Shown here one piece after another: positions 2,826 to 64,000 of a stretch of 64,000 nt of DNA (position 1 is the first letter of the stretch; the number at the start of each line of letters is the position of its first letter). The notes beneath the pieces were generated by a model. The model ran no database searches, had not been told where the DNA came from, and saw only the letters and a program-made list of their open reading frames with translations. Origin of the DNA: an uncultured Burkholderiales bacterium (GTDB lineage Bacteria > Pseudomonadota > Gammaproteobacteria > Burkholderiales > Burkholderiaceae_C). The translations under genes were made by a program, and so were the position numbers. The DNA is taken from the NCBI GenBank assembly GCA_903935585.1, contig CAIZSE010000160.1:1-64000 (forward strand), read 5' to 3'.

Positions 2826-2878
2826 GTCTTGTGCTGGACCGTTGGGTGCAGCACAGGCTGCGTTAAAAACTCAACGGA

Positions 2879-3694: not shown

Positions 3695-3731
3695 GTCTTC
3701 AACTTCTGGAAAATGTGGGCAGAATTGTCGC

Positions 3732-5636: not shown

Positions 5637-5639
5637 ACG

Positions 5640-14609: not shown

Positions 14610-14984
14610 ATGGCGCGCAAGAAGCCATCGTCCGTTCCCAATCGCGGGTTTCGCGTGGCCGACCAGATCCAGCGTGATCTGGCCGAGTTGATTGCTCGCG
14701 AGTTGAAAGACCCGCGTGTAGGCATGGTCACGATCAATGCGATTGAGGTCACGCCCGATTACGCCCACGCCAAGGTCTATTTCAGTGTCTTGACGGGCAA
14801 TCCCGAAGAGGCCACTGAGGGCTTGAATGCGGCAGCGGGCTTTTTGCGCAATGGTTTGTTCAAGCGTTTGCATATTCATACCGTGCCGACATTGCATTTT
14901 TTGTTCGACCGCACCACTGAGCGTGCCTCTGACATGAATGCATTGATCGCCAAGGCCGTGTCTTCTCGCGCCCAGGAGGACTGA
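14610..14984 (+). CDS. rbfA: 30S ribosome-binding factor A
   Basis: [42 protein letters not shown]. Confidence 0.96.
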
Positions 14985-14986
14985 TC

Positions 14987-15967: not shown

Positions 15968-15980
15968 AGGAAGAGAAAGC

Positions 15981-17798
<1,818 letters not shown>

Positions 17799-17811
17799 TC
17801 GGCTGAAAATC

Positions 17812-40039: not shown

Positions 40040-40040
40040 C

Positions 40041-41092: not shown

Positions 41093-44000
41093 ATGAGCCG
41101 AGCGCGTAGCTTGCCGTCAGCGGTGCGACTGGAAGTCCTTGAACAGCGGATCTTGCTGTCAGCCGACTTGCCTGTATCGGGCACCACCGACTTGCTGTCC
41201 AGCCAGTCGGTGCAAACAGCCCCGGCCCAACTGCTGTCCGACCTTGGCACCGAGACGACACCCCCCGAGTGGGTCCCACCAAGTTCTGAGCCATTACAAC
41301 TGCGTTGGCCCTCAGGCTCACTCATGGATTTGGAACCCGCCCAGCAGGCCGGCCAAATGCTGCAACTCGACAGTGGTTTGACTCTGACCGGCACAGGCCA
41401 GTGGAACGGCCCTCTGCTCAATGCCGGCGTGGTGGCCCCGGGCGAGTCACCCGGCGTACTGCAGGTGCAGTCATTCGAGCAAGGCGCTGCGGGCGTGCTG
41501 CAGTTGGAGATCGGTGGCAGTCGCCCCGGTTCAGGCCAGAGCGAAGTGCTCGACGGTCATGACCAGGTGGTGGTGTCCGGGCAGGCCCGCCTCCAGGGCC
41601 TGCTTTCTTTGGACTTCATCAACGATTTCCGCCCTACCGCCGGTCAGGTCTTTGATGTCATGACCTGGTCTTCCCGGCAGGGGACTTTCTCGGCATACAG
41701 CGGCCTGTATGCCGGAAACGGCCTGTACATGAAGCCGATCTATGAATCGGATCGCCTCAGGCTTGTGGCCACAGCGCTGCCCGGCCTCGCGCAGCTTTCA
41801 TTGGCCGATGTGCCGCAGGCACAAACGGCGCTTGATCAGTGGCTTACCCAGTTGGCCAATCAGGTGACGCAGACGACGGTCTCGCTTGACGCCTCGCTGG
41901 AGGTGGCCGGCATGCGCTTGTCCGGTCAGTGGCAGGTCTCGGTGGGCCTGCTGGCTGGCAACCAGGTGGAGACCACGCTGACGGCCACCGAAGTCAGTGC
42001 CCAGTGGTCGGTGCCGGGTCTGACCGGTGCGTTGGACCATCTCAGCGGCAGTCTGGTCATGGGTGCCGGGGACTTGCGCCTTAACCTTCAGGGCAGTGGC
42101 GCCCTGGCTGTAGGCGATGGGCCCTCCATGGCGGGTGATTTCACGCTGGCCTATGAGCAGCTCAGCGGCCGCATGGTGGTGAGCGCCCAGGGCCTGAACC
42201 TGCAACTGGGTGACCCTTCACGCGGTCCGGCGCTGTCGCTGTCTGGTGGTGCGCTGAATTTGAGCTCTGGTGCCGGCCAGTACAGCTTGACACTCACCGG
42301 TGATGGCGCGCTCCATGCCATTGAAGGCGCTTCCTTTCAGGGCAGGCTGAGTTACCGCGCTGGCAGTCAGATTCCGGTGGCCCGATTCGAAGCGCAGGAT
42401 GCCTCCGTGCAACTGGGCAGCCTGGGCTCGGTGCGCGGCAACGTTGGCTTTGCCAGCCAGACGGTGGTGGCCGATGGCCTGACCACGCAGGAGCTGCGCA
42501 TGGGCGTGCAGCTGGCCAGTGCCAGCCTGAACATGGGCTTGATCTCCCTGAGCGCCAGCAGCGGTGCCCTGGGTGTGGTCTGGCGAACCAGCACCTCGAC
42601 CACGGGTCTGGGCCAGGCCATTCGCCACACCGCGATGCAGGGTGTGCTGGATGTCTCGCTGGCGCTGGATGCAGCGGTACAGATCAGTGGCCAGCGTGTG
42701 CGGCTGAGCTACAACCCGGGCGAACAGGCCTTGCTGCGCAGCGTGACCATGGCCGACGGCACTGATTTGCTGGTCGACCTGGCTGCTGGTGCCATGCAAC
42801 TGAGTGGCCGCTTTGCGGCCCAGGTGCAGGGGTTGGCGCAATTCGAGGGTGACCTGTCGCTGGATGTGCAAAAGAAAGTGCGCCTGCTCTCCAATGGCCA
42901 GGCGGTGGAGCTGACAGAATATGCGCTGTCGGGCTCCAGGGCCGCCATGTCGTTCATGCCGGGCGTGGGCAGCGGCGGCGCATTGACGGCGCTCGACGCC
43001 GAGCTGGCCCTGGTCTACGCCAAGGACCAGGCTGGCAACAGCTGGCTGAGCAGCCGTGGCACAGCTGGTGCCATGGTGGTGGGCGGTTTCGCCATCGATC
43101 AAATCGACTCGGCCCAGTGGTCCATCAACCGCGCCATCACGCTCAGTGCTGCGCTCAGTGGCGTGACCGTTGACTGGTCGGATGCGCGGCGCTTTTTACT
43201 GGGCACGGGCCGGCAATTCGTTCTGGACCAAGTTGGCGAGGTGCTGACGCTGCCCGTGCAGGGGCGCATTGCCCTGGGCGACAACAGCCTGTCCGGCCAA
43301 CTTCTCTTGACTCACGACCGCGCTGACAACAGCTGGAACCTCAGCGTGGCCAACGCACAGTGGCTGCTGGCGGCTGGGCCAGCCTTTGTGCGGCTCAACC
43401 AGGTCAGTGGCCAGCTGCGCATTGACGCCGACCGTCGGCGCAGCGGTGAGTTGCTGGGGCAGGTGTCCATTGGCGGCATCGCCGGTCTGAGCCTGACCGC
43501 CACAGCCGCGCGCGTGGCTTTCAATGGTGTGGCTGGCACTTACGCTCTCACGCTGACCAACGCCACCTTGGGCATTGAGGGCTTCGGTCAGATCAGCGGC
43601 AACCTGAGCATCAGCCGCCAGACTACGCCAACTGGCGAGCGCCTGCTTATTGCTGGCACCTCCTTGTCGGCCACGGTGGGGGCAGCAGGCGCGCAGCTGC
43701 AGGTCAGCAACGCCCGCATGGGCTTGATTTTGAGCACCGATGCTTTGGGGCAGGGCGGCTACGCCCTGGTGGCTGAAGGCGGTGTTTCCCTCAGCACCAC
43801 AGGCGATCTGGTCAGTCTCAGCGCCCTGCAGGCCAGGGTGGAAATCAACCGCCTAGGCAGCAGCCTCAACGAGGTCTTGACCCTGGGCGACGGCTCGAGC
43901 GTTGCGCTCGTGTTTGACGACGAGCGGCCCAGAAGCGCGGTGTCCATCATGGGTGCCAACTTGCAGGTGGGCAGCTGGGGCAGCGTCAGTGGTGACCTGC

Positions 44001-47000
44001 GCATCGTCAGCCAAATGGTCACCATCGGTGCCATCACGCGTCAGCAGCTGGAAATCGGCGTCGAAAACCTCAGCGCCGCACTGGCCATGGGTGGGCCCAG
44101 CGTCGGCCTCAGCGGTGGCCGTGCCGCCTTGCTGCTGTTCAACGAAACCGTCAACAACCAAAACCTGTTGCGCTATGCGCTGCAGGCCGAGGGCCAGGCG
44201 ACGCTGGCCGGTGTCAGCGGCCTGAGCCTCAGCGCCCAGCGCATGCAAGTTGCCATCAACCGCAGCGGCGCAGCCATCGAGCGCAGCATCGCCACCCCCG
44301 CTGGCTGGCTGCAGATGGCGCAGACCGAGGGTGAGACGCGCTTGCGCGGTTATGCCTCGGTGGGCGTGGGCAGCTGGTTCAGCGCCGAAGGCGAGGTCTT
44401 CCTGGAGTCACGGCAGAACCAGAGCGTGACGCTCAGCGATGGCAGCACGGCCAGCGTGAACATGTTGCTGTTGGGCGGCAGCGGTCTGTCGGCAACGGTC
44501 AGCGCCGGGGCCAGTCTGGCCCTGGGCGATGTCACCCTGGCCATGGCGATGAGCAGCGAGACAGGCAGCGCCACCCGGCGCTGGATCACCTCCAGCGCGA
44601 CCGTGGGTTCGGCCTCCATCGATGCGCTGGCCCAAGTGCAGATCGAGCTGGGCATGCTCGACATCAACCGGCAGCTCAACAGCGATGGCTCGCTGTATTT
44701 GTTCAACGACGAGAAGGTCATCAACTGGCGGCCCACCGACACCAGTGCCGGTTTGCCGCTGGTGATCAACGCCACCAACGCGCTGGTCATCGACTCGCAG
44801 GTCTCGCGCTTGGCTGCCGCTGTCAAGGGCCGGCTTGACATCGGTGGGGCCAGCATCGAAGGCACCTTCCACATCACCGAGGCTTCTACAACGGTCAATG
44901 GTCAGGTTTTACCCGCCTGGGCCCTGCTGGCCAGCCAGGCCAGCGTGGCACTGCAGGCCAATGGGGCCAGCGCACGCATCGAAAACGTCACTGGCCACCT
45001 GTTGATCGCGGCCAACGGCGTCAGTGGCACGCTGTCAGGGGACGGCTCGGTCACAGGCATCGATGGCGTCAGCGCCAGCGGCAGCCTGGTGGCCAGTTTT
45101 TCTGACAATCGCCTGCAACTGGCAGGCAGCCTGGAGATGGCGGTCACCGGTGTCGGGCAGCTGTCTGGAAATTTCTCGGTCATCAAGGAACCAAGCGTTT
45201 TCTCGGTGCCGGAATTTGAGCGCAAGACCGCCACCGTGAGTGTTGGCGGCACCAGTGAAGAAACCACCGCGGGTGGGCAGATCACCACGGCGCGCCTGCG
45301 CCTGTCGCTCTCAGACGCCAGCGGCAAGTTCACCCGTGAAGGGCTTTACAGCTTGGGCTGGGGTGGCCAAAACCAGAGCTTTGAAACCCTCAGCGGTGTG
45401 GGTGCGGCGGCCCGTCCGGTCACTGACGAAGAGCTCGCCAGTCGCATACAGGCTGCACTGGAGCGCTTGGCCGTGGTCGGTCAGGGCAATGTGCGCGTTA
45501 GTGGCACCCGCAGTACCGGCTTCGAGCTGGAATTCATCGGCGTCCTGGCTGGACAGCATGTCGCCCTGGCCACAGCCGCCGGTGGCGATGGTTTGTGGCT
45601 GGCGCAGCCACCCGATCCGGCCGACCGCGACGACTGGGGTGTGATCGAGGAAACCGGGGCCATGCAGGTCTCGCGCAGTGAGGTGCAGCAACTCACGCTC
45701 AACCGGAGCAGCGGCAGCGGGCAGACTTTCACCCTGGCCCTGGGCGGCGTGGTGACTGCGCCAATCGCATTCAATGCCGCCGGCACGGCCGTGAACGAGC
45801 GCCAGTTGCTCACGCTGACTGCGGCCAACCGCGCCGCTGGACAGTTTTGGCTGGTGCTGGATGGGCAGGCCAGCAGCAAGGTGCGTTATTCCGCCGACCC
45901 GACCTACCACACGGCTCAGCTGCAATCGGCGCTTGAGGGGCTGGTGGGTGCTGGCAATGTGACGGTCAGCTACAAGCAGGGTTACACCGGCAACAACAGC
46001 ATCGACTACCTGATTGAGTTTCGCGGCGCGCGCGCTGGCATGGACTTGTCCAGCCTGCAGGCCGTCAGCTCGGCGGGCGACATCGTGCTGCAAGTGGGCA
46101 CGCTGCGCCAGGGCTCTCCAGGGTATTCGGTGGTGCAGCAGGCACGCGCGATAGAGGCGGCCCTGCAGGCCAGCCTGGGCACTGGCAGCGTGAGCGTGGC
46201 CTACGACCCAGCCTCCAGTCTGGGCAGTTCTCGCTTTCAGATCAGCTTTACTGGCGGCTTGGCCGGCCGCGACCAGAGCACTTTGCTGACCGCGGTGTCT
46301 GGTGCCGGCTTGAGCGCCAGCGTCAGTACCATGCGCAACGGGCAGGCCGCCGTTGGCGCGGTGCAGACGGTGCGTTTGTACGACGAGGCCGTGGTCGGCA
46401 CCTTTGAGTTGGGCCTTTGGTTCCAGGGCCGCACCTACACCACCGGCGCGCTGCCCTTCAATGCATCGGCCTCCCAAGTGCAGGCGGCTTTGTTGTCTGC
46501 ACAAAGCAGCACCGGGCAGTCGCTGGCGCAGCTGGGCGTGCAGACCACCGTGCAACTGCTCACCGAGACCCAGGGCAGCAAGGTTTGGCAGGTGGCCTTT
46601 GGCGGCAACGCTGAAAGCGTGGACCTGGACCTGCTGCAAGGGCGCATCACCAGCACCGTGCCGGCACCTGATGCCAGCCTGTCCATTCAGCGGCAGGCCA
46701 GCACCAGCAGCGAGACGCAGCGCCTGAGCCTGGGCAGCCCTGGTGGGCGCGTGCGGCTGTCCCTCGAAGGGGTCAGTGGCAGCACCGATGTGCTCGACTT
46801 GGCCACACTCACCCCCGAGTTGCTGCGCAGCGCACTGGCAAGCCTGAGCGGTATTGGCTCGGTTGACAAGCTGCAAGTCACTGCGGTGGCGGGCAGCAGC
46901 GGCGCCTACGACATTCGCTTTGCGGGCAGCCTGGCCGGGCGTGACATGGCCCGGCTGCTGGTCAGCCCGGTGCAGACGCTTTCGCTGGCCATGGCCGGCG

Positions 47001-50000
47001 GCCTGCGCCCCAGCCACTTGCAACTGAACCTGGCAGGCTCGGCAGAGAGTACCCCCGAATTCAATATGGCGGGGCTGAGCGACGCGCAGTTGGCGCAGTC
47101 GTTGCAACTGCTCATTGGCATGCTGCCCGACCTCAATGCAGGCCAGGTGCGGGTGCAGGCCCGTGCCGATGCGCCGCTCAGCTTTGACATCAGCTTTGTC
47201 AACGCCCTGGCGGGTGCCAGCCTGCCGGCCGTGCAGGCGGTGGTATCGCGCAAGGTAGAGGTCAGCACCGAGCGCTTACTGATCGGTGCCAGCAGCGTGA
47301 ACGCGCAAGTCGGTGGTGCGGGCGCAGGTGTGACCGTGCAAAACGGTGAGCTGGCCTTGCTGGTGCAAAAAAGGCCCGATGCCAGCACTGGTTATGCCCT
47401 GCAGATGACGGGGCAGGCGGCACTGAGCGGTTTTGGCGGCAGCGTCAGCCTTTCGGCTGGCGCGCAGTTACGCGTCAATGCCATGGGCGAGGCGGTGTCG
47501 GTCACTGTGCCCACTGGCGTAAACAGCAGTGCAGTCCTCACTTTTGCAGACGGCATGGCCCGGCAGGAACTGCTGATCACCAACGGTCGCATCGACGTGT
47601 CAGGCCTTGGCTATGTGCAGGGCGACCTCAAACTCATCACCACGCGCCTGTTGATCAATGGCGTGATCACCACCGATCTGAGCATCGGCTTTGAAAATGC
47701 TGGCGGCACTTTAACGCTGGGTGGCGCGCAAGCGGCCCTGACCGGTGGCCAAGGCGCGCTGATGCTGCGCCACGAGGTTGACGCGGGTGGTGTGGTCACG
47801 CGGCGCATCGCGCTGCAGGCCGACGGCACCGTGGCCTTGCAGGCCAACGGGGTGAGCCTGAACTCGGCCATGCGCCTGAGCTACAACCGCTGGGGCGATG
47901 CGCTGCAGGCCACCGTGGCCACGCCCACAGGGGATTACCAGCTCGGTCTGCTTGTGGGCGAAACCCGCCTGGTCGGCCAGACCGAGCTCACGCTGGCCAG
48001 CACCTTGGTGGTCAGCGGCAATCTTTCCATCGAAAGCCGCCTTGCCCAGACGGTCACGCTGAGCAACGGCGTCCAGGTTCAGGTCAACCAGCTCATCATC
48101 GGAGGCACCCAGGTCTCAGCGGGCGTGCGCTCAGGTTCGGACACAATCGCTGCCCTTGGCGGCATCGACATTGCCGCAGTGGTCAGCACCGAGGTGGTGG
48201 CCAGTGGCGCGCCGCGAGGCTGGATCACCTCAAGCGCCACGCTGGGCTCGGTCAGTGTGGCCGGGTACAGCCTGCAAGATCTGCAGACGGCACAGCTGAA
48301 CATCAACCGTGCCTACGATGCGGTCTCCGGTCGCCTGGTCGATGCGGCCAACCACGCCACCCAGGCAGCGCAGGCGGTGATCGACTGGTCCACCAGCGCG
48401 CAGACCTTGACGCTGTCGGCCAGCCAATCCGTGGTGCTGGCGCAGGCCCTGCCGCGTTTTGAGATTCCGGTCAGTGGCACCATCGATATCGGCGGTGCCA
48501 AGGTCTCGGGCAATTTCAAAATCACGCTTGATCAAAATGGTGGCGATCGCATCTGGACCATCGATGCGCAAGGCGCCAGCGTGGGCTACCGCAGCGGCGG
48601 TGCTTATGTCGGCATCGAAAATGCTAGCGGCACCCTGGTGTTTGGGCCGGGCAGCACCCGCAGCGGGAGCTTGAGCGGCACCGCCGTGATCGAGGGCCTG
48701 GGGGGCGTGTCGGTGGCGGGCAGTTTCAGCACCAGCTTCTCGGGCACAGGCCTGAACTTCAGCGGCACGGCGATGACGCTGACGGTCGCCGGTTTCGGTC
48801 AGATCAGCGGCAACCTGAGCGTCAGTCGCACCAGCGGCGGGCAGATCCTGTTGGCCGCTACTGGGGTGTCGGCCAGCATAGGGGCTGGCGGCACCGGCAT
48901 CAGCGTGAGCAACGCCAGCCTGGGGCTTTACATCGCCGGGCTGGCCGAAAATTCGGCTGGTTACGCGCTGGTGGCCAACGGCAGCGCCAGTCTCGACGGC
49001 TTTGCCGGCGTGTCAATGGCGGCCAATGCCCAGGTGCGCATCAACACCCTGGGCCAGACCCTGAACACCAACATCGGCGGCGTGGACCTGGTCTTTGCCG
49101 AGCGCAGCCGCGTGCAAGAGGTGGCCATTTCCAGTGGCAGCCTCACCGTGGTCGGGTTGGGCACCCTCAGCGGTGCCCTGGCCATCACCTCGACCACCTG
49201 GGTCAACGGCAGCAACCAGACGGTGCAGGATGTGCGCATCGGCCTGAGCGGGGTGTCGGGCACTTTGACGCTGGGCGCACTATCTGCCACCCTGTCCAGC
49301 GGTGCAGGTGCGCTGCTGCTCAAGAAGGTGGGCTCAGCCAACAGCACCCATGCCGTGCAGATCGAGGGTGATGTGGTGCTGGCTGGTGCCGGCGTCAACC
49401 TCAGCGCCAACCGCATGCGCGTGGCCTACAACCGCCTGGGCAGTGCTGTCGATGGCTTGGAGGTGAGCACCGGCAGTGGCCATTACACCGTCAATTTGCT
49501 CAACAACGAAACCCGGGTCAGCGGCCAGGCCAGTGCCACGGTGGCCGGACTGAGTCTCTCAGGTGAGGTGTTCCTGGAAGTGCAGACCGGCATCACCCAG
49601 ACCCTGGCAGATGGCGTCACCGTGACCCTTGATCAGACCCTTCTCGGCGGCACCGGCTTGTCGCTCAGTTATGCCAGCGGGGGCAGCACGCTGGCGCAGT
49701 TTGGCGGCGTAGACCTGGCCCTGGTCTTCTCCCAAAACACCGCCGATGCCAGCCAGCGCTGGCTGACCGCCCTGGGCAACCTGGGTTCGATCGAGGTCAT
49801 GGGTCAGTCGCTGGCCGACCTGAGCAGCGCGCAGCTGCGCCTGAATCAGGCCATCGACGCTGCGGGAAACCTGATCGAGGACAACTCGCGCGCTGTGCTC
49901 AACTGGGCCGGCAGTCAAGCCCGCACGATCGCGCTGTCGGCCGTCGACAGTGGCAAGCAAGCGCTGATTAACATGGCCGATCGGCGCTGGGAAATTCCAG

Positions 50001-56000: not shown

Positions 56001-59000
56001 TTTCGGGCTTTGCCAGCCTCAGTGGCGAGTTCGCGGTCACCAAGCAATCCCCGGCCCGCATCGAAGTTGAGCCAGCCATCAGCCGGGGTCAGACCGAGGC
56101 GGCCGGTAGCGTCAGCGAGCTGGCCATCGGCGGGGTCATGTCGGCCACCCAGTTCCGGCTGAGCGCGGCGGGTACGGGCATCGACGGCCGCCCCATCTTC
56201 CGCGAAGGCCTTTATGTGTTTACTTTTGGCGGTGCCAGCCAAACCGTCAACTCGCTCGATGGCTCGGGTCAGGCGCTCGAAGATGCGGCCTTTGCCAGTG
56301 TGCTTGGCAGCGGGCTCAACCAGTTGCTGGGTGCCAATGCCGTGACGGTCAGTGGCAGCCGATCCACTGGGTTCGTGGTCGCGCTGACGGGGAATGGTTA
56401 CAACGGGCGTCTGGTGACGGGCCTGGGCATGACTGCGCCGGCAGACCCCTCTTACAAAGATGACTGGGGCAGTGTCAGCGTGACCGCCTCGGCCACGGCC
56501 GCCAGCGCCTCGCGCCACCACCTGCTGCTGGTGCCGCAAGGCAGCAACATCAGCGGTGCCAAATTCGCCCTGACCCTGAACCAGCCTGGCGGCAGTCGCA
56601 GCACAGCCGATATCCGGTACATCGCCGACAAGAACCGCCAGGCGGTGGCCATTCAGGAAGCGCTGGAGGCGCTGGTCGGTCGCGGCAAGGTGTCGGTGCA
56701 GTTTGACAGCAACAGTGCGGGCGTCAGCTCGCAGGCCTATTTCTTCAATTTTGCGCAAGGCATCACAGTCAACACGCTGACGGCGCAGGCCTTCACCACA
56801 GACACCTCGGGGGCGCTGATACCCAATGTGATCCGGGTGAGTGCCCAGACCACGGCCTTGGCTGCAGGCACTGCGGCCACTGGCACCGTGCAGGCCATTG
56901 ACCTGCACGACGAATCCCTGCGCGGCAGTTTCACCCTGTCATTCACTGACAACAGCATCACCTACAGCACCGCCAACATCGCCTTCAACGCCTCGGCAGC
57001 GCAGTTGCGCGCCGCCTTGTTGGCCGCTGTCGGCAATCAGGCCAGCTTTGCTTCGCGCGGCGGTGATGTGCAAGTCGCCTTTGTCGGCAGCCTGGGCAAC
57101 CAGCAGTGGCAGGTGGGCTTTACGGGCAGTGCCCTGGGTCGGCAGATTGGGGTCATGAGCGGTGAAATCACCCAAATCGAGCGGGCACCGGCAGCGCAAA
57201 TGGCGCGCATCGCCGATGGGGCCACCCGCTCGGAGACCCAGCGAATCACGGCACCTGCAGGTTCGGGCGTGTTTGCCCTGGCTTATGGTGGCCAGAGCAC
57301 GGCACCGCTGGCCGCCAGTGTCTCGGCCCTGGCATTGCAGTCGGCGCTGGAGGCCCTCGCTGGCATTGGTCAGGGCAATGTGCAGGTGACCGACCGTGCA
57401 GGCGGCTGGGATGTGGCCTTTGTGGCCGCCCTGGCTGGGCGCGACATGGCGCTTTTGCGCTTTAGCGAGCTGCAGACGCTGGACTTGCGCCTGGGCGACG
57501 GGTTGGCCGATGGGGTGGGCCTGCGCCTGAGTGGGCAAAACAGCTGGGCCCAACAACTCGATCTGCGCGGCAAGCTGCCCGGTGAAATCCGTATCCTCCT
57601 GCAGGCTGGCCTGGCCAGCATGCCGCAGATTGGGGCCAACAACATCACGGCTCATGCCAGCGCGCAGGCAGGGGTGTTCCATCTGGTGGCCTCGGGCAGC
57701 CTGGCGGGTGGGGCGCTGCCAGGCGTGGTCGCGGGCCTCACGCGCCATGTCGAGCCGGCACCGGACTACCTGCTCATTGGCGCGGCCAATGTCAACGGCA
57801 CCATCGGCGGGCCCAGTGCGGGTGCCCGCTTGAGCAATGGCCAGTTGGCCATGGCCATTTCGCGCGCGGCCGGGCAAAGCGCTGGTTATGCGCTGCAGGC
57901 CTCGGGCAGCGTCAGCTTGCAGGGTTTTGGCAACGCGGTCACGCTCAATGCCACCGGGTCGGTGGCCGTCAATACCCTCGGCCGTGCGGTCGACCTTCAG
58001 GTGCCTACCGGGCTGAGCACGCCCGCAGCCTCTTTGGTCTTTGCCGAGCCGACCCGTATCCAGCAGCTGATCGTCAACCAGGGTGACCTCACGGTGCAGG
58101 GCCTGGGCACGCTCAGTGGCGCGCTGGCTGTGACGGCCACTTACCACAAGGTCGATGGCATTGACACCACCGACGTGCGCATCGGTCTGGGCAATGTGCA
58201 GGGCCAGCTCAATGCCGGTGGTTTGCAGGCCAGTCTGAGCAACGGTGCTGGCGCTGTGCTGCTTCGCAGCCAGGTTGGCATCGGCACCAGCTACGCGGTG
58301 CAGGCCGAGGGCAACCTGAGCTTTAACGCCGGCAACGCTGTGACCATCACGGCCGAGCGCCTGCAGATCACCCTCAACCGCTGGGGCAGCGACCTGGCCG
58401 AGACGGTGCGCACCGCAGACGGCCTTTACGAGGTGTCGCTGGTCGACGGCGAGTCGCGCATACGCGGTCGCATGGGGGTGGCCGTGGCCGGCGTACTCAC
58501 AGCCCAGGGCGACCTGTTCCTAGAAACCATAAATAACCAAAGCGCTCGCCTGAGCGACGGCACGACGCTGGCGGTGGACCAGCTCATCTTGGGGGGGGCC
58601 GACCTGGGCATTGCCTTGAGCGCAGGGGGTGGCTTGGGTGCCAGCCTGAGCGAGGTCAACCTGTTGGCGGTGGTGGCCACCGAGCGGGGCGGCCAGGGAC
58701 GCCGCTGGCTGGGTGCCAGCGCCACCGCGGGCCAGGCCAGCGTGGCCGGCTATGCGCTCGGTCAGATCAGCCAGGCCAGCTTGCAGATCAACCGTGCATT
58801 GAGCAGCAGCATCCATGTGGCCGGCACCGCCGATGCTGCAGTGATCGACTGGTCCCAAGCGAATTTGGTGCGCGACATCCGACCCGACCTGGTGCTGGGC
58901 TTTGCGCACTCGGGCCGCAAGATGGACATCCAGGCCCAAGCGCAGTTGCAGCTGGGCGAAGCGCGCATGGACGGGCAGTTTGGGCTGACGCTGGAGACGC

Positions 59001-62000
59001 CTGCTGGCGGTGATCGCTGGAAGCTCAGCGCCACCGATGCCAGCCTGGGCCTGGTGGTCGGCGGAGTCGGTCTGAGGCTCACCGATGTGCAAGGCACGCT
59101 GTACCTGTTGGCTGGGGGGGGACGGCAGGGCTCGGTCAGCGGTCAGGCTGAATTGGTGGGTGTGCCGGGGCTCAGCCTGTCCGGTGACCTGGCCGCCAGT
59201 TTTGACGGCAATGGTCGCCTTCAGTTGGCAGGCGCGGCTGAACTGCAGGTGTTGGGCATGGCCAGCCTCGAAGGTAATTTCCTGATCGACCGCACGGTGG
59301 TCGATCAGCGCAGCCAGATTCGTGTGGCCATTGCCGACCTGACCACCGAATTCACGGTGCCCGGCGGCCTGGGCTCGGCCAAGCTGCAAGATGGCCGCCT
59401 GCTGGTGTTGTTGGGCACGGCGGCCGATGGCCAGTCTGGCTATGCCATGCAAGGCTCGGCCACCGCCATCATTGACACCCCGCTGGTGGACCTGACCGGC
59501 CAGGTGCAGGTGCGCGGCAATACCCTGGGCCGAGCCTTCAACCTGAGCCAGAACGTCGGCGGCACGTCGGTGCAGATGGCGTTGGCGGAGACACCCCAGC
59601 GTGCGGCTGTCGACTTTGGTCAGCTCGATGCCTTGCTGACCGACCTGCTGGGTGACGGCATGTCTTTTGTTGCCGGGGGGCTGAGCGATCTCAAGACCTC
59701 GATTTCGCCGGAGTTCGAGCGCGACGCGCAGGGCAATGCGATGGGCACCGACAACATCAACGACCATCCAATGGCCGCCGATTTGCCGCTGATAGGCACC
59801 TCGCTGACCCAACTGATGGCGGCTGACCGCATCCTGGCCATCGGTGACTACACACGCCGCTATATGGGCCAAAGCGGTTCGGACTTGAACAACCTGCCGT
59901 CTCCGGTGTACGGCTCTGTCAATCAGCCCAGCCTGCGGGGCTTGCTGAGCTACCTGCAAACCCACTGGTTGCCGACCATCGGGGCCAGTGCCGATGCCCT
60001 TCAGGTGGTCATGGGCGAGCAGGGCCTGAGCCTGCGCTTTGACCAGAAGCTGCACTTTTCCACTGGCACCGAAGTGGTCTTTGGCGCCGAGGCAGAGCAG
60101 CTTGGCTTGTCCATCGACGGGGCGATCAAGGTCAATATCGGAGTGGAGGTCGATGCGGCCTTCGACCTGGCCCTGAACTGGGGCGGTACCCGAAGTGGTG
60201 CGAGCTTTAACCTGCAGCGCTTCAACGTGCTGGCCAAAGCCAGCGTTGACGACATTGACATCACCGCCTCGCTGGGCCCCCTGGCCGCCAGCTTAGGCGA
60301 CGTCAAGCGCCAGATGGGCAGCTTGCTGCTGGAGATCGGCGGGCAGATGCAAAAAGCCACCAATGGCAGCCTGAGCTTTGTCAAGACGGTGGACAAGATC
60401 GAGGTGGTCCTGCCGGTGTACGCCCAACTGGGCAGCCTGGACCTGGCCGCGGGCAAGACGCCGACCATTCGCATCAGCGGCAGCCCCTTTGCTGGCCAGA
60501 TCACCTGGCGCACGGAGAACTTTGACGCCATCGGCGACTTCAGTCGTTTGTCTGTGGTCGACCTGGTGCTCATGTTCCCGGACTTCATCGACGCGCTGGC
60601 CACGGTGACGCAGGACGAACGCATCGCCCAGGCGCTGCCTTTCCTGGACGCCGGGCTGGACCAGTTGCTGCTGTTTGGCGAAGGCTTCAAGAGCAGCGTT
60701 TACGACAAGATCGACTTCTACAAGCCCCGCGTGGACTTGATGAGCTTGTCCTCGGTGACGGTGGCGCAGGTCACAGCCAGTGACGGCAGCGTCATCAATG
60801 CCCTGTTCAATCCGCTGGGCGGCTTCAGCGCTGACTTTTTGGACAAGAAAGAGGTCACGGTCTACCGCGTGACAGCTGGGGTCACCGAGACCCTGGGAAC
60901 GTATGCCATTGAGCGGGTGATTGATGGCAAGACCCTGGCCTTGTCTGGGGCACAGATCTCTGGCGCTGGCTTGCATGCCGTGATCCACGACGAGCGCACG
61001 CTGATCACCACCCTGCAGGAATTCATTGCGGCAGTCAACCGCTCGGGTGTTTTGCCCGTCGGCATGCAGATCGTGTTTGATCCGGTGCACCGCACCTTTG
61101 GTGTTCCGCTGTATTTCCGGGAACAGTTCGACCCCTTCGATGTGCCGCTTGATTTCAATTTGGGGGTTGAGGGGTTTGCGCTGTCGACCCGCGCCAGCGC
61201 CAGCATGAGCGTTTATGTGGAAGGCACCCTGGGCTTTTTTGCCGATCTGGATGGCCGCACCCTCATTGGCAACAAAGGCAGTGCAGCGGCGGGCAGCAAC
61301 CTGTTCTCTGACAGCACCTTCCTGTTTGACAGCACCATGCTGGGCTATGCCATGGAGCTGGGGGGGGAGAAGTACACCGTGGTGGGCATCGCCAGCGGTG
61401 GACGCAGCGTCACGCTGGACCGTCAGGTGCAAGCAGGCGCCCAGCAGTTGGGCTACATCCTGCGCGAAGACCGCTTCAGCATGGGTATCGAAAATGTCGC
61501 CCTGAATGCGGGCATTCAGGCCAGTATTTCCGATCTCGAAGTGGGCCTGCAGCTGGGCTTTCTCAAGGCCACTGCGGGCGGCCAGGGCTCGGGTTCAGGC
61601 CTGCAACTGTCGGCCACTGCAGGCGTGTCACTCGATAAAAATCCTGGCAGTGGCAATGCGCTGGACAAGCGTTTTGCCTTCAGCGAGATCAGAACATCGA
61701 ACATCCACTTTAATTTGCAGGGCACGGCCCAGGCCAAACTGCGTGGCCTGCGCGTCGACCCGGGTGTGGGGGCAGACATCCCGCTGGCCCCGAACATCGA
61801 GTTGTCGCTGACGGCACTGGATTTGTTCAACCCGGGTGCAACCCGCACAGTCTTGCAAAACCCTTCTTTTGCGGCTGATATCCCAGCCTTGGTTCGCGCC
61901 GGCACGGTGGGTGCCAGAGACTTGGTCATCATCATGCCGGACCTTGGGGCGGCGTTCGACTTCAAGAACCTGTCGTTCTCCGACATCGTGGATGCCACAC

Positions 62001-64000
62001 GCATGGGCCTGGAACTCGTGCGCGAATCCATTGCCAACCAACCTTTTTACGCGGTGGTGCTGCCGGTGGTTGGGCGTTCTCTGGCCGATGTGTTTCCGTT
62101 CGTCGACGACTTTTTGGCCCGCGTTGAAAGTGTGGCCAACAACCCCGTCGGTGCCATCGGTCAGGTAGAGGCTATTTTTGAAAGTGCGCTGGGCATCACC
62201 GATAACAACAGTCTGCGTGCCGAAGACCAGATCTTTGCGCTTAGCCTCAACGGCGACACGCTGGATGTTTACCTCAAGCTTGACAAGGTGTTCGAGCAGA
62301 AGTTCGGCTTCAGTCTTGACTTGCAGCAGCTGGCTGCGCTGGCAGGCCCCAGCGCGCTCGCCGGCCTAGACTTTGTGGATGGCTTGGCCGATGTCATCAA
62401 CCCCGGCGCAGCGGGCAACATCACTTTTGCGGCCATGGCCAAGTTGCAGGTGCAAGCGGGCATCCGTTTTGGTGGTAACAGCCCTGAGTTCTTTCTTTAT
62501 GACTACAACGCAAGCCGCTTGCAAACGGTGGCGGTGGCTGCCTTCGGGTCGGCCATTTTCGCCAATCGCAGCGCCAGTCTGAGCAACGACAACAAGGCCG
62601 CCATATTGCGCGACATGCGCCAGGTGATCACTGGTCTTGGCAGCGGTGTCGAGCGTATCAGCGCCAGCGTCAACACCTACTGGCTCAGCGGCAACGAGGC
62701 CGGCAACACCGATGCGGTGCACGGGTCTAATCAGCTGGCCGGTCGCCGCCAGGCGGCGGTGATGGATCTGCAAAACTGGTTGAGCAGCCAGCTGGGCATC
62801 AAGATTGAGTTGTTTGCTGGTGAGCAACAGCAACTCGGCAGTGCCGCAGGCCAGAAGCTTTTCAGCCAGGTCACAGCCTACAGGGTGGTCAGCGTGCCGC
62901 CCGAGCAGGCCCGAGGGACCTACGCCACCATCGGCTTGCGCGTGGCTGGACAGGACCTTTACATGGGCTTTGAGGCCGGTCCAGTCAAACTGGGTGTGGT
63001 GGGCGGCTGGGCGGCCATCGACCGTGACGGCTTGGCCAGCACCCCAGACTACGCCAGCTTCACCATCAAGATCGACCAGGTGCGTGGCACGCGGGTGGAC
63101 GACGGCCGCTTCTACCTGGGCAGCGAGCGCATCAGCGACAACTTCGCCACCGCGCTGGAGGGTGCTTTTGGCATGAACCTGCCCTTGTCGATGAGCTTTT
63201 CCGTGGGCACGTTGTCATTGGGAAATTTCACGGCCTCTACCACCCAGGCCGGGTTGGTGGGCTTTCTCAATGGCGCCTCCGGTGTGGTGTCCTCTCAAAA
63301 ACTGCTCAACATCAGCGTGCCCAATGTCCAAAATATCATGGACGACTACCTCAGCGAGTTCAGCTTGCTGGGCATGCTCAACGACCCGACGCGCATCATC
63401 GACGGCGTCGATGGTGCGCTGGGCGTGGTGCAGGACACGTTGGGTGCAGAGTTCACGCGTGACATTCCGCTGATTGGCACCAAACTTGGTGACGCAGGCA
63501 ACTTTGTGCGCGATGTGCGCACGGGCCTGTTACAGGATCTGCGGAAAAAACTCTCGGGTGAGGGTGGTGGCGCTATCGGCATTGTGCGCAGCTCGCTGTG
63601 GGACTTGTTTGGTACCGGTGGGCTGAACATCATCCTAGACGGAGACGATGCCGGCACCGACATCGGCATCAGTGATGTGCAGGTGGCCTGGTTTGACAAG
63701 AATGGTGTCAAGCTCTCCGCTTGGGTGGTCGGCCAGATGCCAGCCGGTGCCGAGGACGCGATCCAGTTCAACATGAAGCTGGGCAAGAAACTGGTGGGCG
63801 CCAGCGTCGACATTCCGCTGGACTTTAACCTTCCTGGCTTCTCGCTCGACATTGACGGCGGCTTTGCCTTTGACTTGAGCTGGGCCTTTGACTTTGGTTT
63901 TGGGCTGAGCGTGTCCAGCGGCTTTTACCTCAGCACCAACCGGGACACCAAACCCGAATTGCGCATTGAGGCGCTGGCCTACCTCAGCGGGCAGGGCGGC
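41093..64000 (+). CDS. Giant LEPR-XLL-domain modular repeat protein, 3' truncated by the window (>=7,636 codons)
   Basis: Start MSRARSLPSAVRLEVLEQRILLSADLPVSG; read in frame 2 to ...NTNRDTKPELRIEALAYLSGQGG at 64000. The supplied track shows no stop-terminated frame-2 ORF after 41093, as expected if the frame is continuously open. In-frame TGA at 41075 bounds the start (ATG 41093 or TTG 41078). Confidence 0.96.
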   Translation, partial: MSRARSLPSAVRLEVLEQRILLSADLPVSGTTDLLSSQSVQTAPAQLLSDLGTETTPPEWVPPSSEPLQLRWPSGSLMDLEPAQQAGQMLQLDSGLTLTGTGQWNGPLLNAGVVAPGESPGVLQVQSFEQGAAGVLQLEIGGSRPGSGQSEVLDGHDQVVVSGQARLQGLLSLDFINDFRPTAGQVFDVMTWSSRQGTFSAYSGLYAGNGLYMKPIYESDRLRLVATALPGLAQLSLADVPQAQTALDQWLTQLANQVTQTTVSLDASLEVAGMRLSGQWQVSVGLLAGNQVETTLTATEVSAQWSVPGLTGALDHLSGSLVMGAGDLRLNLQGSGALAVGDGPSMAGDFTLAYEQLSGRMVVSAQGLNLQLGDPSRGPALSLSGGALNLSSGAGQYSLTLTGDGALHAIEGASFQGRLSYRAGSQIPVARFEAQDASVQLGSLGSVRGNVGFASQTVVADGLTTQELRMGVQLASASLNMGLISLSASSGALGVVWRTSTSTTGLGQAIRHTAMQGVLDVSLALDAAVQISGQRVRLSYNPGEQALLRSVTMADGTDLLVDLAAGAMQLSGRFAAQVQGLAQFEGDLSLDVQKKVRLLSNGQAVELTEYALSGSRAAMSFMPGVGSGGALTALDAELALVYAKDQAGNSWLSSRGTAGAMVVGGFAIDQIDSAQWSINRAITLSAALSGVTVDWSDARRFLLGTGRQFVLDQVGEVLTLPVQGRIALGDNSLSGQLLLTHDRADNSWNLSVANAQWLLAAGPAFVRLNQVSGQLRIDADRRRSGELLGQVSIGGIAGLSLTATAARVAFNGVAGTYALTLTNATLGIEGFGQISGNLSISRQTTPTGERLLIAGTSLSATVGAAGAQLQVSNARMGLILSTDALGQGGYALVAEGGVSLSTTGDLVSLSALQARVEINRLGSSLNEVLTLGDGSSVALVFDDERPRSAVSIMGANLQVGSWGSVSGDLRIVSQMVTIGAITRQQLEIGVENLSAALAMGGPSVGLSGGRAALLLFNETVNNQNLLRYALQAEGQATLAGVSGLSLSAQRMQVAINRSGAAIERSIATPAGWLQMAQTEGETRLRGYASVGVGSWFSAEGEVFLESRQNQSVTLSDGSTASVNMLLLGGSGLSATVSAGASLALGDVTLAMAMSSETGSATRRWITSSATVGSASIDALAQVQIELGMLDINRQLNSDGSLYLFNDEKVINWRPTDTSAGLPLVINATNALVIDSQVSRLAAAVKGRLDIGGASIEGTFHITEASTTVNGQVLPAWALLASQASVALQANGASARIENVTGHLLIAANGVSGTLSGDGSVTGIDGVSASGSLVASFSDNRLQLAGSLEMAVTGVGQLSGNFSVIKEPSVFSVPEFERKTATVSVGGTSEETTAGGQITTARLRLSLSDASGKFTREGLYSLGWGGQNQSFETLSGVGAAARPVTDEELASRIQAALERLAVVGQGNVRVSGTRSTGFELEFIGVLAGQHVALATAAGGDGLWLAQPPDPADRDDWGVIEETGAMQVSRSEVQQLTLNRSSGSGQTFTLALGGVVTAPIAFNAAGTAVNERQLLTLTAANRAAGQFWLVLDGQASSKVRYSADPTYHTAQLQSALEGLVGAGNVTVSYKQGYTGNNSIDYLIEFRGARAGMDLSSLQAVSSAGDIVLQVGTLRQGSPGYSVVQQARAIEAALQASLGTGSVSVAYDPASSLGSSRFQISFTGGLAGRDQSTLLTAVSGAGLSASVSTMRNGQAAVGAVQTVRLYDEAVVGTFELGLWFQGRTYTTGALPFNASASQVQAALLSAQSSTGQSLAQLGVQTTVQLLTETQGSKVWQVAFGGNAESVDLDLLQGRITSTVPAPDASLSIQRQASTSSETQRLSLGSPGGRVRLSLEGVSGSTDVLDLATLTPELLRSALASLSGIGSVDKLQVTAVAGSSGAYDIRFAGSLAGRDMARLLVSPVQTLSLAMAGGLRPSHLQLNLAGSAESTPEFNMAGLSDAQLAQSLQLLIGMLPDLNAGQVRVQARADAPLSFDISFVNALAGASLPAVQAVVSRKVEVSTERLLIGASSVNAQVGGAGAGVTVQNGELALLVQKRPDASTGYALQMTGQAALSGFGGSVSLSAGAQLRVNAMGEAVSVTVPTGVNSSAVLTFADGMARQELLITNGRIDVSGLGYVQGDLKLITTRLLINGVITTDLSIGFENAGGTLTLGGAQAALTGGQGALMLRHEVDAGGVVTRRIALQADGTVALQANGVSLNSAMRLSYNRWGDALQATVATPTGDYQLGLLVGETRLVGQTELTLASTLVVSGNLSIESRLAQTVTLSNGVQVQVNQLIIGGTQVSAGVRSGSDTIAALGGIDIAAVVSTEVVASGAPRGWITSSATLGSVSVAGYSLQDLQTAQLNINRAYDAVSGRLVDAANHATQAAQAVIDWSTSAQTLTLSASQSVVLAQALPRFEIPVSGTIDIGGAKVSGNFKITLDQNGGDRIWTIDAQGASVGYRSGGAYVGIENASGTLVFGPGSTRSGSLSGTAVIEGLGGVSVAGSFSTSFSGTGLNFSGTAMTLTVAGFGQISGNLSVSRTSGGQILLAATGVSASIGAGGTGISVSNASLGLYIAGLAENSAGYALVANGSASLDGFAGVSMAANAQVRINTLGQTLNTNIGGVDLVFAERSRVQEVAISSGSLTVVGLGTLSGALAITSTTWVNGSNQTVQDVRIGLSGVSGTLTLGALSATLSSGAGALLLKKVGSANSTHAVQIEGDVVLAGAGVNLSANRMRVAYNRLGSAVDGLEVSTGSGHYTVNLLNNETRVSGQASATVAGLSLSGEVFLEVQTGITQTLADGVTVTLDQTLLGGTGLSLSYASGGSTLAQFGGVDLALVFSQNTADASQRWLTALGNLGSIEVMGQSLADLSSAQLRLNQAIDAAGNLIEDNSRAVLNWAGSQARTIALSAVDSGKQALINMADRRWEIPVDGALDFGAARLAGQFNIVLDKDLITGNRIWDIQATGVAVTVSAADVSVALTQGAGSLYLNGNQRSGSISGLASISGLAGLSLEGALSANFDANGLFLSGNNVAVTVEGFGRMAGDFAVSKNGSGATSTLTVGLNNISADFGGVSINDGQLGLYAGRNALGEAGYALVAQGIASVSGLSGLSLNANAAVRINTLGEALSRTITVGSGSVAVEFANGLAVQELLIREGTLTIDGLGSLSGDLGIRAQTERSGTTTTSTLRIGLSGLSGSLTPGGVGATLTGGNGALLIEKVSTSTVTTSRYAVQVGGSLALSGIDGVTLQAQALSVAYNRLGRAVDNEVIATGSGDYLMNLLDNETRIRGQMDVSVAGVLSISGDMFIESRTAANAANVGLSDGSSVSVDQLIFGGAGIQAALGNSSVGASLRDVDVAVVLSTERGSGSPRRWLSAQALVGGATVQGYALADLRSVQLLVNSELLAGALVLDGTRAVIDWNGPANSSQTLVAISSNQNLAFAQGQRVFAMDVDARMALGPASLSGRFNIALDSSALGDKAWRIDASGVDVALQANGASVGLRNGTGQLWLGKDADSGLYGASQRSGSISGTASVTGVSDLSLTGTFAARFDSQGNLGLAGAVEMDMAGFAKASGQFAVSQNALLTATPQTQNASQSAGASLSVSETQRGGQQSASTFSLKVAEGSDSSLRVREGLYGFGWNGASVQVRLLASDADAVWASKLQSAMVALFGSGNATVSGSVSSGFAITLAGTRLGEAVTGLSLVPPADPGLRDDWGSNYLVAQATATTGAVHALDLMPAGTAGAIRLGFDFQAVSNTVMRLTGYDSASGRFREGHYQLSFGERTASVSSLSASGTALSDIEFVSRLRVGLDSLFGTGAVQVSGTRIAGFAIEFIGPWSGQAIAVDSVAGGSGLFMRAPLDLAAGLSALDQSQVISQAVSASVPTAYTFNVQVPAGGATVNADSFALQFEGNPRSANIKFVNLQDSQGRHIIDALMVLTGSRAAYTTKLLVASADGQPQKVYQSADLTVRQLSSPGNSQLYEISFTGALTGKVLGWGALSASNTGATAGVQYLLAGKSGSTATAAGAVHALDRFDPALRGSFTLGLTVAGVSYTTSQIDLQASAAALEAALLMARSSGNVSLASTGVNVTGTLNSQGQWQISFGGAAVGQRIAPLTRTVLAQAAPSATLAVQSSGLSTAAGHYSTAAIDFAQFNNTSTGGTVLRDALLAARTADGRVFSNAGVTVSTSYDSAARQWRVSLGGAAVAQRFEPLQGEVVPLVAAQASLAQGVTGSTSNEVQHLSLNQAGAFQLGFNGRYTAVLQTAGLSAAALQAALESLSGVGAGQVRVSAAGEGQWDIAFQGALAGRNVAALQVQAVRTLDLGLGDSQWADALRLRLVGQTDWARSIERVSGTTDAAWRSLLLSELQTALQSLPGVGRGNLLLQAVDGSSGRFYLVASAGLQGKSLPAIEVQLFRPVSEPDNYLHVGVSGATVSVGTASAGLQIQQAELGLVISRSTPAQIGVTAPAPGYALYAAGQASLNGFAGQVSLQADAVIQINTLGRAVDQSVKTGLTSLNRNVTFSDGLVRKEITILQGTVAVAGVAQVSGQLKLVSTTQTVSGQVVTDIRIGVDQASGSLSAGSASLTLSDGTGAVVLRHTSSGGTVSTQYALVAEGAVAVTGVPGLQVQADSLRIAVNRWGADLSQDVATARGSYRMELKDNETRARGQMTIDVAGALKASGELFIESRTNQSVRLSDASNVTVNQLILGGAGLSAQLGNDTIGARMQDAALAVVISTEVVSGAQTARRWLTSKAQLASAELAAGVTATITQGSLDINRQFASSGGLLAPGGVVIDWNGADDQQSMALTLAPGRSVQLADGQQVFQLALTGELLFGPARLGGSFTLGLQEGSAGAQSWTVDARNAYASMTASGATVALSNGSGRILIGPNGEKSGSVLGVASVTGVDGLGLKGTLATRFDAAGNFQLAGALELDISGFASLSGEFAVTKQSPARIEVEPAISRGQTEAAGSVSELAIGGVMSATQFRLSAAGTGIDGRPIFREGLYVFTFGGASQTVNSLDGSGQALEDAAFASVLGSGLNQLLGANAVTVSGSRSTGFVVALTGNGYNGRLVTGLGMTAPADPSYKDDWGSVSVTASATAASASRHHLLLVPQGSNISGAKFALTLNQPGGSRSTADIRYIADKNRQAVAIQEALEALVGRGKVSVQFDSNSAGVSSQAYFFNFAQGITVNTLTAQAFTTDTSGALIPNVIRVSAQTTALAAGTAATGTVQAIDLHDESLRGSFTLSFTDNSITYSTANIAFNASAAQLRAALLAAVGNQASFASRGGDVQVAFVGSLGNQQWQVGFTGSALGRQIGVMSGEITQIERAPAAQMARIADGATRSETQRITAPAGSGVFALAYGGQSTAPLAASVSALALQSALEALAGIGQGNVQVTDRAGGWDVAFVAALAGRDMALLRFSELQTLDLRLGDGLADGVGLRLSGQNSWAQQLDLRGKLPGEIRILLQAGLASMPQIGANNITAHASAQAGVFHLVASGSLAGGALPGVVAGLTRHVEPAPDYLLIGAANVNGTIGGPSAGARLSNGQLAMAISRAAGQSAGYALQASGSVSLQGFGNAVTLNATGSVAVNTLGRAVDLQVPTGLSTPAASLVFAEPTRIQQLIVNQGDLTVQGLGTLSGALAVTATYHKVDGIDTTDVRIGLGNVQGQLNAGGLQASLSNGAGAVLLRSQVGIGTSYAVQAEGNLSFNAGNAVTITAERLQITLNRWGSDLAETVRTADGLYEVSLVDGESRIRGRMGVAVAGVLTAQGDLFLETINNQSARLSDGTTLAVDQLILGGADLGIALSAGGGLGASLSEVNLLAVVATERGGQGRRWLGASATAGQASVAGYALGQISQASLQINRALSSSIHVAGTADAAVIDWSQANLVRDIRPDLVLGFAHSGRKMDIQAQAQLQLGEARMDGQFGLTLETPAGGDRWKLSATDASLGLVVGGVGLRLTDVQGTLYLLAGGGRQGSVSGQAELVGVPGLSLSGDLAASFDGNGRLQLAGAAELQVLGMASLEGNFLIDRTVVDQRSQIRVAIADLTTEFTVPGGLGSAKLQDGRLLVLLGTAADGQSGYAMQGSATAIIDTPLVDLTGQVQVRGNTLGRAFNLSQNVGGTSVQMALAETPQRAAVDFGQLDALLTDLLGDGMSFVAGGLSDLKTSISPEFERDAQGNAMGTDNINDHPMAADLPLIGTSLTQLMAADRILAIGDYTRRYMGQSGSDLNNLPSPVYGSVNQPSLRGLLSYLQTHWLPTIGASADALQVVMGEQGLSLRFDQKLHFSTGTEVVFGAEAEQLGLSIDGAIKVNIGVEVDAAFDLALNWGGTRSGASFNLQRFNVLAKASVDDIDITASLGPLAASLGDVKRQMGSLLLEIGGQMQKATNGSLSFVKTVDKIEVVLPVYAQLGSLDLAAGKTPTIRISGSPFAGQITWRTENFDAIGDFSRLSVVDLVLMFPDFIDALATVTQDERIAQALPFLDAGLDQLLLFGEGFKSSVYDKIDFYKPRVDLMSLSSVTVAQVTASDGSVINALFNPLGGFSADFLDKKEVTVYRVTAGVTETLGTYAIERVIDGKTLALSGAQISGAGLHAVIHDERTLITTLQEFIAAVNRSGVLPVGMQIVFDPVHRTFGVPLYFREQFDPFDVPLDFNLGVEGFALSTRASASMSVYVEGTLGFFADLDGRTLIGNKGSAAAGSNLFSDSTFLFDSTMLGYAMELGGEKYTVVGIASGGRSVTLDRQVQAGAQQLGYILREDRFSMGIENVALNAGIQASISDLEVGLQLGFLKATAGGQGSGSGLQLSATAGVSLDKNPGSGNALDKRFAFSEIRTSNIHFNLQGTAQAKLRGLRVDPGVGADIPLAPNIELSLTALDLFNPGATRTVLQNPSFAADIPALVRAGTVGARDLVIIMPDLGAAFDFKNLSFSDIVDATRMGLELVRESIANQPFYAVVLPVVGRSLADVFPFVDDFLARVESVANNPVGAIGQVEAIFESALGITDNNSLRAEDQIFALSLNGDTLDVYLKLDKVFEQKFGFSLDLQQLAALAGPSALAGLDFVDGLADVINPGAAGNITFAAMAKLQVQAGIRFGGNSPEFFLYDYNASRLQTVAVAAFGSAIFANRSASLSNDNKAAILRDMRQVITGLGSGVERISASVNTYWLSGNEAGNTDAVHGSNQLAGRRQAAVMDLQNWLSSQLGIKIELFAGEQQQLGSAAGQKLFSQVTAYRVVSVPPEQARGTYATIGLRVAGQDLYMGFEAGPVKLGVVGGWAAIDRDGLASTPDYASFTIKIDQVRGTRVDDGRFYLGSERISDNFATALEGAFGMNLPLSMSFSVGTLSLGNFTASTTQAGLVGFLNGASGVVSSQKLLNISVPNVQNIMDDYLSEFSLLGMLNDPTRIIDGVDGALGVVQDTLGAEFTRDIPLIGTKLGDAGNFVRDVRTGLLQDLRKKLSGEGGGAIGIVRSSLWDLFGTGGLNIILDGDDAGTDIGISDVQVAWFDKNGVKLSAWVVGQMPAGAEDAIQFNMKLGKKLVGASVDIPLDFNLPGFSLDIDGGFAFDLSWAFDFGFGLSVSSGFYLSTNRDTKPELRIEALAYLSGQGG
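43620..45186 (+). repeat. Super-repeat A, copy 1
   Basis: VEINRLGSSLNEV...RYALQAEGQATLAGVSGLSLSAQRMQVAINRSG...EVFLESRQNQSVTLSDGS...RRWITSSATVGS...GVGQLSGNFSVIK. Approximate limits. Confidence 0.8.
45187..47262 (+). repeat. Cassette B1 inserted in the super-repeat array
   Basis: Starts after SGNFSV; FTREGLYSLGWGGQNQSF...DRDDWG...; several LQAAL...VTV...F.GALAGRD units; ends VSRKVEVSTERLLIGASSV. Confidence 0.75.
47263..48832 (+). repeat. Super-repeat A, copy 2
   Basis: LRVNAMGEAVSV...ARQELLITNGRIDVSGLGYVQGDL...NLSIESRLAQTVTLSNGVQVQVNQLIIGG...RGWITSSATLGS...GFGQISGNLSVSR. Approximate limits. Confidence 0.8.
48833..50363 (+). repeat. Super-repeat A, copy 3
   Basis: VRINTLGQTLNTN...VQEVAISSGSLTVVGLGTLSGAL...EVFLEVQTGITQTLADGVTVTLDQTLLGG...QRWLTALGNLGS...GFGRMAGDFAVSK. 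Confidence 0.8.
50364..51947 (+). repeat. Super-repeat A, copy 4
   Basis: VRINTLGEALSRTI...VQELLIREGTLTIDGLGSLSGDL...DMFIESRTAANAANVGLSDGSSVSVDQLIFGG...RRWLSAQALVGG...GFAKASGQFAVSQ. Confidence 0.8.
51948..54450 (+). repeat. Cassette B2 inserted in the super-repeat array
   Basis: RVREGLYGFGWNGASVQV...LRDDWGSNYL...REGHYQLSFGERTASVSS...multiple LQAALESLSGVGAGQVRV...FQGALAGRN units; ends VQLFRPVSEPDNYLHVG. Confidence 0.75.
54451..56043 (+). repeat. Super-repeat A, copy 5
   Basis: IQINTLGRAVDQSV...VRKEITILQGTVAVAGVAQVSGQL...ELFIESRTNQSVRLSDASNVTVNQLILGG...RRWLTSKAQLAS...GFASLSGEFAVTK. Confidence 0.8.
56044..57762 (+). repeat. Cassette B3 inserted in the super-repeat array
   Basis: IFREGLYVFTFGGASQTVNS...YKDDWGSVSV...LQSALEALAGIGQGNVQVTDRAGGWDVAFVAALAGRD; ends LTRHVEPAPDYLLIGAANV. 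Confidence 0.75.
57763..59289 (+). repeat. Super-repeat A, copy 6
   Basis: VAVNTLGRAVDLQV...IQQLIVNQGDLTVQGLGTLSGAL...DLFLETINNQSARLSDGTTLAVDQLILGG...RRWLGASATAGQ...GMASLEGNFLID. Confidence 0.8.
59600..64000 (+). other. Post-array region of the giant protein, distinct from super-repeat A
   Basis: From AAVDFGQLDALLTDLLGDGMSF onward, the A landmarks (INTLG, RRW.TS, LSDG...VDQLILGG) are absent; contains PLIGTSLTQL (~59786) and RDIPLIGTKLGDAGNFVRDVRTGLL (~63460). Confidence 0.65.

Follow-up and report, generated by a model that had tools for sequence, protein, structure and literature searches.

The window analysed here, a stretch of 64,000 nucleotides, opens contig G000:C160, which is 107,060 bp long and contains no N. 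It contains the first part of a giant reading frame on the forward strand, which starts at ATG 41093. A sequence-only reading of the window had claimed that this frame is still open at 64000, and this was borne out: no in-frame stop occurs in that span, and the frame ends further along the contig, with a stop at 96736, giving 18,547 codons. The size of the gene had been rightly described as very large and was understated, the ORF being 2.4 times longer than the part visible in the window. The protein has 18,547 aa and a mass of 1.88 MDa. Its placing among the longer reading frames of bacteria was fair; record size was considered and rejected, because an ORF of 39,678 aa has already been published (PMC10066038). 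LEPR ORFs of comparable size, up to 19,427 aa, are present in other genomes, and the one of 19,427 aa (G210:C115:112865) is longer than the present giant. The features of the giant are as follows, those beyond 64000 in contig numbering that continues the numbering of the window.

41093..64000, forward strand: giant LEPR-XLL ORF, window part (codons 1-7636), running on to the stop at 96736
41126..41173, forward strand: LEPR-XLL motif, aa 12-27, RLEVLEQRILLSADLP; NF012209 match; the Litoricola homologue has the motif in the same position
42080..59392, forward strand: N-terminal repeat region, aa ~330-6100, from self-comparison, unit alignment and AF2 model
59393..64000, forward strand: start of the non-repetitive segment, aa ~6100-8150, from self-comparison and Litoricola alignment
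~65909-66013, forward strand: RTX repeats, aa ~8273
~78300-83400, forward strand: Ig-like domains, aa ~12400-14100
~84500-95400, forward strand: DUF5649-type repeats, aa ~14500-18100

The giant is immediately preceded on its strand by a histidine kinase-like and a response regulator gene (38168-40754, recognised from their translations); this pair may regulate it.

In the giant-ORF DNA, 683 and 416 stops fall in the other two forward frames; after base shuffling there were 513, and the longest stretch free of stops was 308 codons. A chance open frame is therefore excluded. The GC content at third codon positions is 0.65-0.81, exceeding that at the first and second positions in all 1000-codon windows. 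In addition, the protein is devoid of cysteine (0 of 18,547 residues, where the composition of 22 nearby ORFs predicts 172). Since cysteine would probably have come in with a chimeric join or a stretch read out of frame, this favours one continuous frame.

The N-terminus had been assigned to the LEPR-XLL motif from the letters alone, and the profile search agrees. The LEPR-8K model (NF012209, curated cut-off 17 bits) matches aa 12-27 with 20.5 bits (E 2.6e-4), and 26.3 bits (E 3.1e-5) were obtained in the genome search. The giant thus combines a motif over the cut-off with very large size, the two features by which LEPR-XLL domain proteins (NF012209) are recognised. Such proteins occur in about a quarter of the sampled Pseudomonadota genomes, many of them with 2,000-19,000 residues. 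They are known as a motif only, which the papers found mention in passing, attaching neither function nor machinery to it; the giant described here, in contrast, has putative machinery linked to it. We propose that the LEPR-XLL stretch is an N-terminal address tag.

No Pfam family was matched by aa 1-7635. The N-terminal repeat region is built of units of ~520 aa, 33-45% identical to a reference unit where aligned. The unit is predicted to be all-beta (AF2 model, pLDDT 80.8), and a PDB fold search with it gave no meaningful match (TM <=0.18). Tandem repeats at the DNA level were absent, since the protein repeats have diverged. Conservation against the Litoricola homologue peaks at aa ~6800-8400, within the non-repetitive segment and the RTX part, where identity is about 51-62%. 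Neither a transmembrane segment (no 19-residue window above KD 1.9) nor a signal-peptide-like core in the first 60 aa was detected. With its repeat units and its RTX, Ig-like and DUF5649-type parts, the giant is built like a surface or secreted protein. As for the secreted or adhesin-like role that had been guessed for it, secretion gains support from the lack of cysteine and of transmembrane segments, from the RTX repeats and Ig-like domains and from the adjoining TolC and HlyD genes, while adhesion stands unproven. These features are best explained by a very large, cysteine-free, repeat-built protein that is secreted or presumably located at the surface.

Six genes follow directly after the giant, with gaps of at most 35 bp or overlaps, the M50/SecA and SecA/GAF-HlyD junctions being 4-bp overlaps.

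96760-97087, downstream of the giant: DUF3467
97100-98710, downstream of the giant: OEP/TolC-type channel
98658-99542, downstream of the giant: HlyD
99577-101730, downstream of the giant: RRE-M50-HlyD fusion (PqqD/RRE, M50 protease and HlyD)
101727-103814, downstream of the giant: SecA paralogue
103811-105667, downstream of the giant: GAF-HlyD

The adaptor and channel Pfam matches in this operon are PF02321, PF16576 and PF13437. When the neighbourhood was checked for TolC, HlyB and HlyD genes, as the sequence-only reading had advised, TolC-type and HlyD genes were present and the HlyB-type ABC gene was absent. No ABC domain occurs among the six operon genes, nor do they include SecY2/Asp partners or a SecY-like channel. 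DUF3467 was considered as a core part and rejected; the 80-locus scan described below gave no match, and outside the window contig it was seen only in the Litoricola locus.

In the M50 protein, H208, E209 and H212 and the residues N304-P305-L306-x-R308-x-D310 are invariant in 14 sequences, so that both ligand motifs of an M50 intramembrane protease, HExxH and NPLxR[FY]D, are in place. An RRE domain is assigned to its N-terminal part (aa ~1-130): the PqqD profile PF05402 matches 11 of the 14 family members (best E 4e-7), the window's own protein staying below the Pfam PqqD model on its own, so that its RRE assignment rests on the family. The family profile in turn finds the PqqD structure 3g2b in the PDB (E 2e-6). 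The C-terminus has a MexA/MacA-like adaptor fold in the AF2 model (pTM 0.58). Among NCBIfam models the protein scores best with the daptide maturation protease NF041824, reaching 157 of the 300 bits required.

Most members of the SecA paralogue family retain the motor motifs. A portion of the C-terminal SecA region is missing from the paralogue, whose match covers positions 29-474 and 512-614 of the 787 in the model. The paralogue scores 436 bits with TIGR00963 (canonical SecA, cut-off 800), and 384, 361, 329 and 313 bits with SecA2 models that have cut-offs of 1085, 930, 725 and 1100. In a tree, 97 SecA paralogues (the window's and 96 relatives) stand apart from 29 canonical SecAs of several phyla with support 1.0. 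Among 16 genomes checked, all 14 with a LEPR locus have a SecA paralogue besides the housekeeping SecA, whereas the other two, the genus-mate G088 and G001, both without LEPR, have a single SecA each. These results indicate that the locus is accessory. The housekeeping SecA of the window's genome was seen only as a contig-end fragment (G000:C30:7127-7447).

The closest relative of the window's M50 protein is found in a Litoricola MAG (L144). Upstream of that relative, about 55 kb of this MAG align in the same order with aa 1 to ~18,440 of the giant, at 28-62% identity. The homologue starts MSR...LEQRILLSAD, as the giant does, and is followed by DUF3467, OEP, HlyD, M50, SecA and GAF-HlyD, the same order as in the window contig. 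The Litoricola copy of the giant frame is broken in several places in the MAG, so the comparison supports the extent and order of the cassette and not an intact ORF there.

The motif and the module are linked across genomes. A strong M50 match was found in 26 of 28 LEPR genomes of the host family vs 7 of 123 others (p 1e-20; 151 genomes, LEPR ORFs counted if >=600 aa), at the level of the phylum in 66 of 78 vs 18 of 221 (p 8e-37; 299 genomes), and in Planctomycetota in 14 of 14 vs 18 of 135 (p 3e-11; 149 genomes), these Fisher p-values being too small because related genomes are treated as independent. The motif-module pattern recurs in separate phyla. An M50 gene lies within 10 kb of 34 of the 45 LEPR ORFs of >=600 aa, on the same strand in 34/34; in the host family the distance is typically 2.4-4.2 kb, upstream or downstream. 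For the remaining 11/45 no M50 gene was seen within 10 kb, some of these ORFs being on short contigs and one 610 kb away from the M50 gene. Export in trans is possible for three LEPR giants that have no M50 gene nearby but lie in genomes carrying the module elsewhere, G115:C1:2506229 (12,249 aa), G083:C53 (8,470 aa) and G083:C63 (10,763 aa).

GAF-HlyD, M50 and SecA stand side by side in 20/20 family loci, and HlyD is present in 19/20. In a set of 80 loci, chosen by M50 similarity alone and so favouring relatives of the window's module type, the SecA paralogue was adjacent in 68 of the 75 with room downstream and GAF-HlyD in 67 of the 72 with room upstream. Judged by record titles, the set covers Pseudomonadota, Verrucomicrobiota, Planctomycetota, Fibrobacterota, Desulfobacterota, Nitrospirota, Lentisphaerae/Kiritimatiellae and Omnitrophota; the module is found in at least eight phyla. 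Culturable, non-pathogenic carriers in the set include Neptuniibacter caesariensis and Marinobacterium mangrovicola. Of the genomes tested from these M50-chosen loci, 42/48 had the motif over the cut-off, vs 1/14 control genomes. In four Fibrobacter loci (L176, L177, L178, L221), which have M50 and the SecA paralogue, GAF-HlyD was not detected; L177 and L221 have a large ORF (>=3,297-3,323 aa within the sequence covered) immediately upstream.

Two module types go with two motif types. Loci that contain SecA have LEPRxLLSAD-like motifs (LYSAD in some), while loci whose M50 belongs to a more distant class and which lack SecA, here called type-B, have LEPRxMFDAA or FDGAA-like motifs. With the motif classes assigned by eye, a D[AG]A ending was found in 11/11 loci without SecA vs 0/23 with SecA (p 3.5e-9). 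If the motif is a recognised address, motif and machine are expected to vary together in this way. The type-B modules, which must use another motor or the housekeeping SecA, led us to reject SecA as a component of every module. One exception, L232 (G334), combines an M50 of the first class with the intermediate motif LEPRLLFSAT and lacks SecA.

From these results we consider it probable that the giant is exported by a tag-read HlyD/TolC exporter with a SecA paralogue, encoded by the genes downstream of it. RREs bind leader peptides in RiPP pathways. By analogy, the RRE (PqqD-like) domain of the M50-HlyD fusion would bind the LEPR-XLL tag, and the M50 intramembrane protease would probably clip it. 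The SecA paralogue may then push the unfolded chain, for which HlyD, GAF-HlyD, the HlyD part of the M50 protein and the TolC-type channel would form the continuous path to the outside, where the RTX part may fold in external calcium. The pore in the inner membrane could be SecYEG, the M50 protein or something else. Counting against this model are the lack of a SecY-like channel in the module, the existence of type-B modules without SecA, the 11 of 45 LEPR ORFs with no M50 gene within 10 kb, the failure of the window's own M50 protein to reach the Pfam PqqD model, and the AF2 pTM of 0.58 for the M50 model.

The module shares parts with several known systems. HlyD-type adaptors, a TolC-type channel and an RTX cargo are common to it and to type 1 secretion (HlyB/HlyD/TolC) and tripartite pumps. 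The energisers named in a 2021 review of tripartite systems are ABC, RND and MFS (PMC8277102); none of these is linked here, the HlyB-type ABC of type 1 systems being absent from the six operon genes, and the module has instead a SecA paralogue and an N-terminal tag. The accessory Sec system (SecA2/SecY2) of Gram-positive bacteria likewise places a dedicated SecA paralogue beside very large surface proteins; in contrast to it, the present module lacks SecY2/Asp, scores far below the SecA2 cut-offs, has HlyD/TolC and belongs to a Gram-negative envelope. With RiPP maturation proteases (daptide NF041824; PqqD/RRE) it shares an RRE-like N-terminal domain and an M50-type intramembrane protease, but here the M50 protein is fused to HlyD, encoded in an operon with SecA and TolC, linked to giants and below the NF041824 cut-off. 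A similar N-terminal motif is the planctomycete extracellular motif PF07595 (RRLxxExLExRxLLA), which Studholme et al. suspected in 2004 to be an export signal and for which their proposal, as quoted in PMC8567305, names no machinery. The PF07595 profile did not match the window protein, and two relatives gave sub-threshold matches only (E 0.04 and 0.06); identity of the two signals was rejected on this ground. The module, if it works as proposed, falls in none of the secretion classes tested here.

Export might alternatively proceed in two steps, the SecA paralogue passing the giant into the periplasm by way of the housekeeping SecYEG, with HlyD/TolC serving the outer membrane only, or other cargo. 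SecA normally works with SecYEG, the module has no SecY2-like gene and type-B modules work without a SecA of their own, all of which would fit. A Sec-type signal peptide is however missing from the giant, part of the C-terminal SecA region is missing from the paralogue, and the adaptor-bearing M50 protein has a domain of the leader-binding type; this route is thus possible, though we think it unlikely. The RTX repeats, and the frequent role of M50 proteases in regulated proteolysis, would suit an ordinary type 1 substrate that leaves by an unlinked ABC/HlyD/TolC system, with neighbours that sense envelope stress or regulate. We hold this to be improbable, as type 1 signals are C-terminal whereas the motif is N-terminal, the operon has TolC and HlyD without an ABC gene, and the M50 protein is predicted to end in an adaptor fold.

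The daptide match of the M50 protein and the occurrence of RRE domains in RiPP pathways could also mean that the M50/RRE-HlyD-SecA module matures and exports small, RiPP-like peptides and that giants are mere neighbours. Against this, motif and module go together in several phyla, the form of the motif differs between module types, and the giant belongs to the same operon-like run, which makes such a role highly improbable. That the giant ORF is a chimera of assembly or annotation, or is not expressed, is scarcely credible: the genome assembly consists of 190 contigs and the Litoricola copy is spread over several frames, yet the contig has no N, GC3 is steady and cysteine is lacking over the whole length, and a full-length collinear homologue is followed by the same downstream genes.

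The preferred reading is a tag-read exporter. Its extension to a new Gram-negative export class, with a LEPR-XLL/FDAA tag, an RRE-M50-HlyD reader, a SecA-paralogue motor and an HlyD/TolC conduit in at least eight phyla, we regard as evenly balanced, jointly with its component that two tag/machine pairs differ in specificity. No description of this module (SecA, M50, HlyD, PqqD, TolC and giant) was found in the open literature that was searched. If such a class exists, it carries some of the largest known bacterial proteins. A linked leader-reading protease and SecA motor would give the LEPR-XLL motif a function and would account for the passage of megadalton proteins across two membranes. If confirmed, the module would show by which route a large group of giant proteins is released from bacteria. 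It may, in addition, be the machinery that the planctomycete motif proposed in 2004 has so far lacked.

The tag may serve many cargoes and not only giants. In two Phycisphaerae genomes (G471 and G472), 15 and 9 LEPR-motif proteins, respectively, are encoded on many contigs and are mostly of moderate size (about 500-4,900 aa), and up to 15 tagged proteins may share a few machines in some members of this group.
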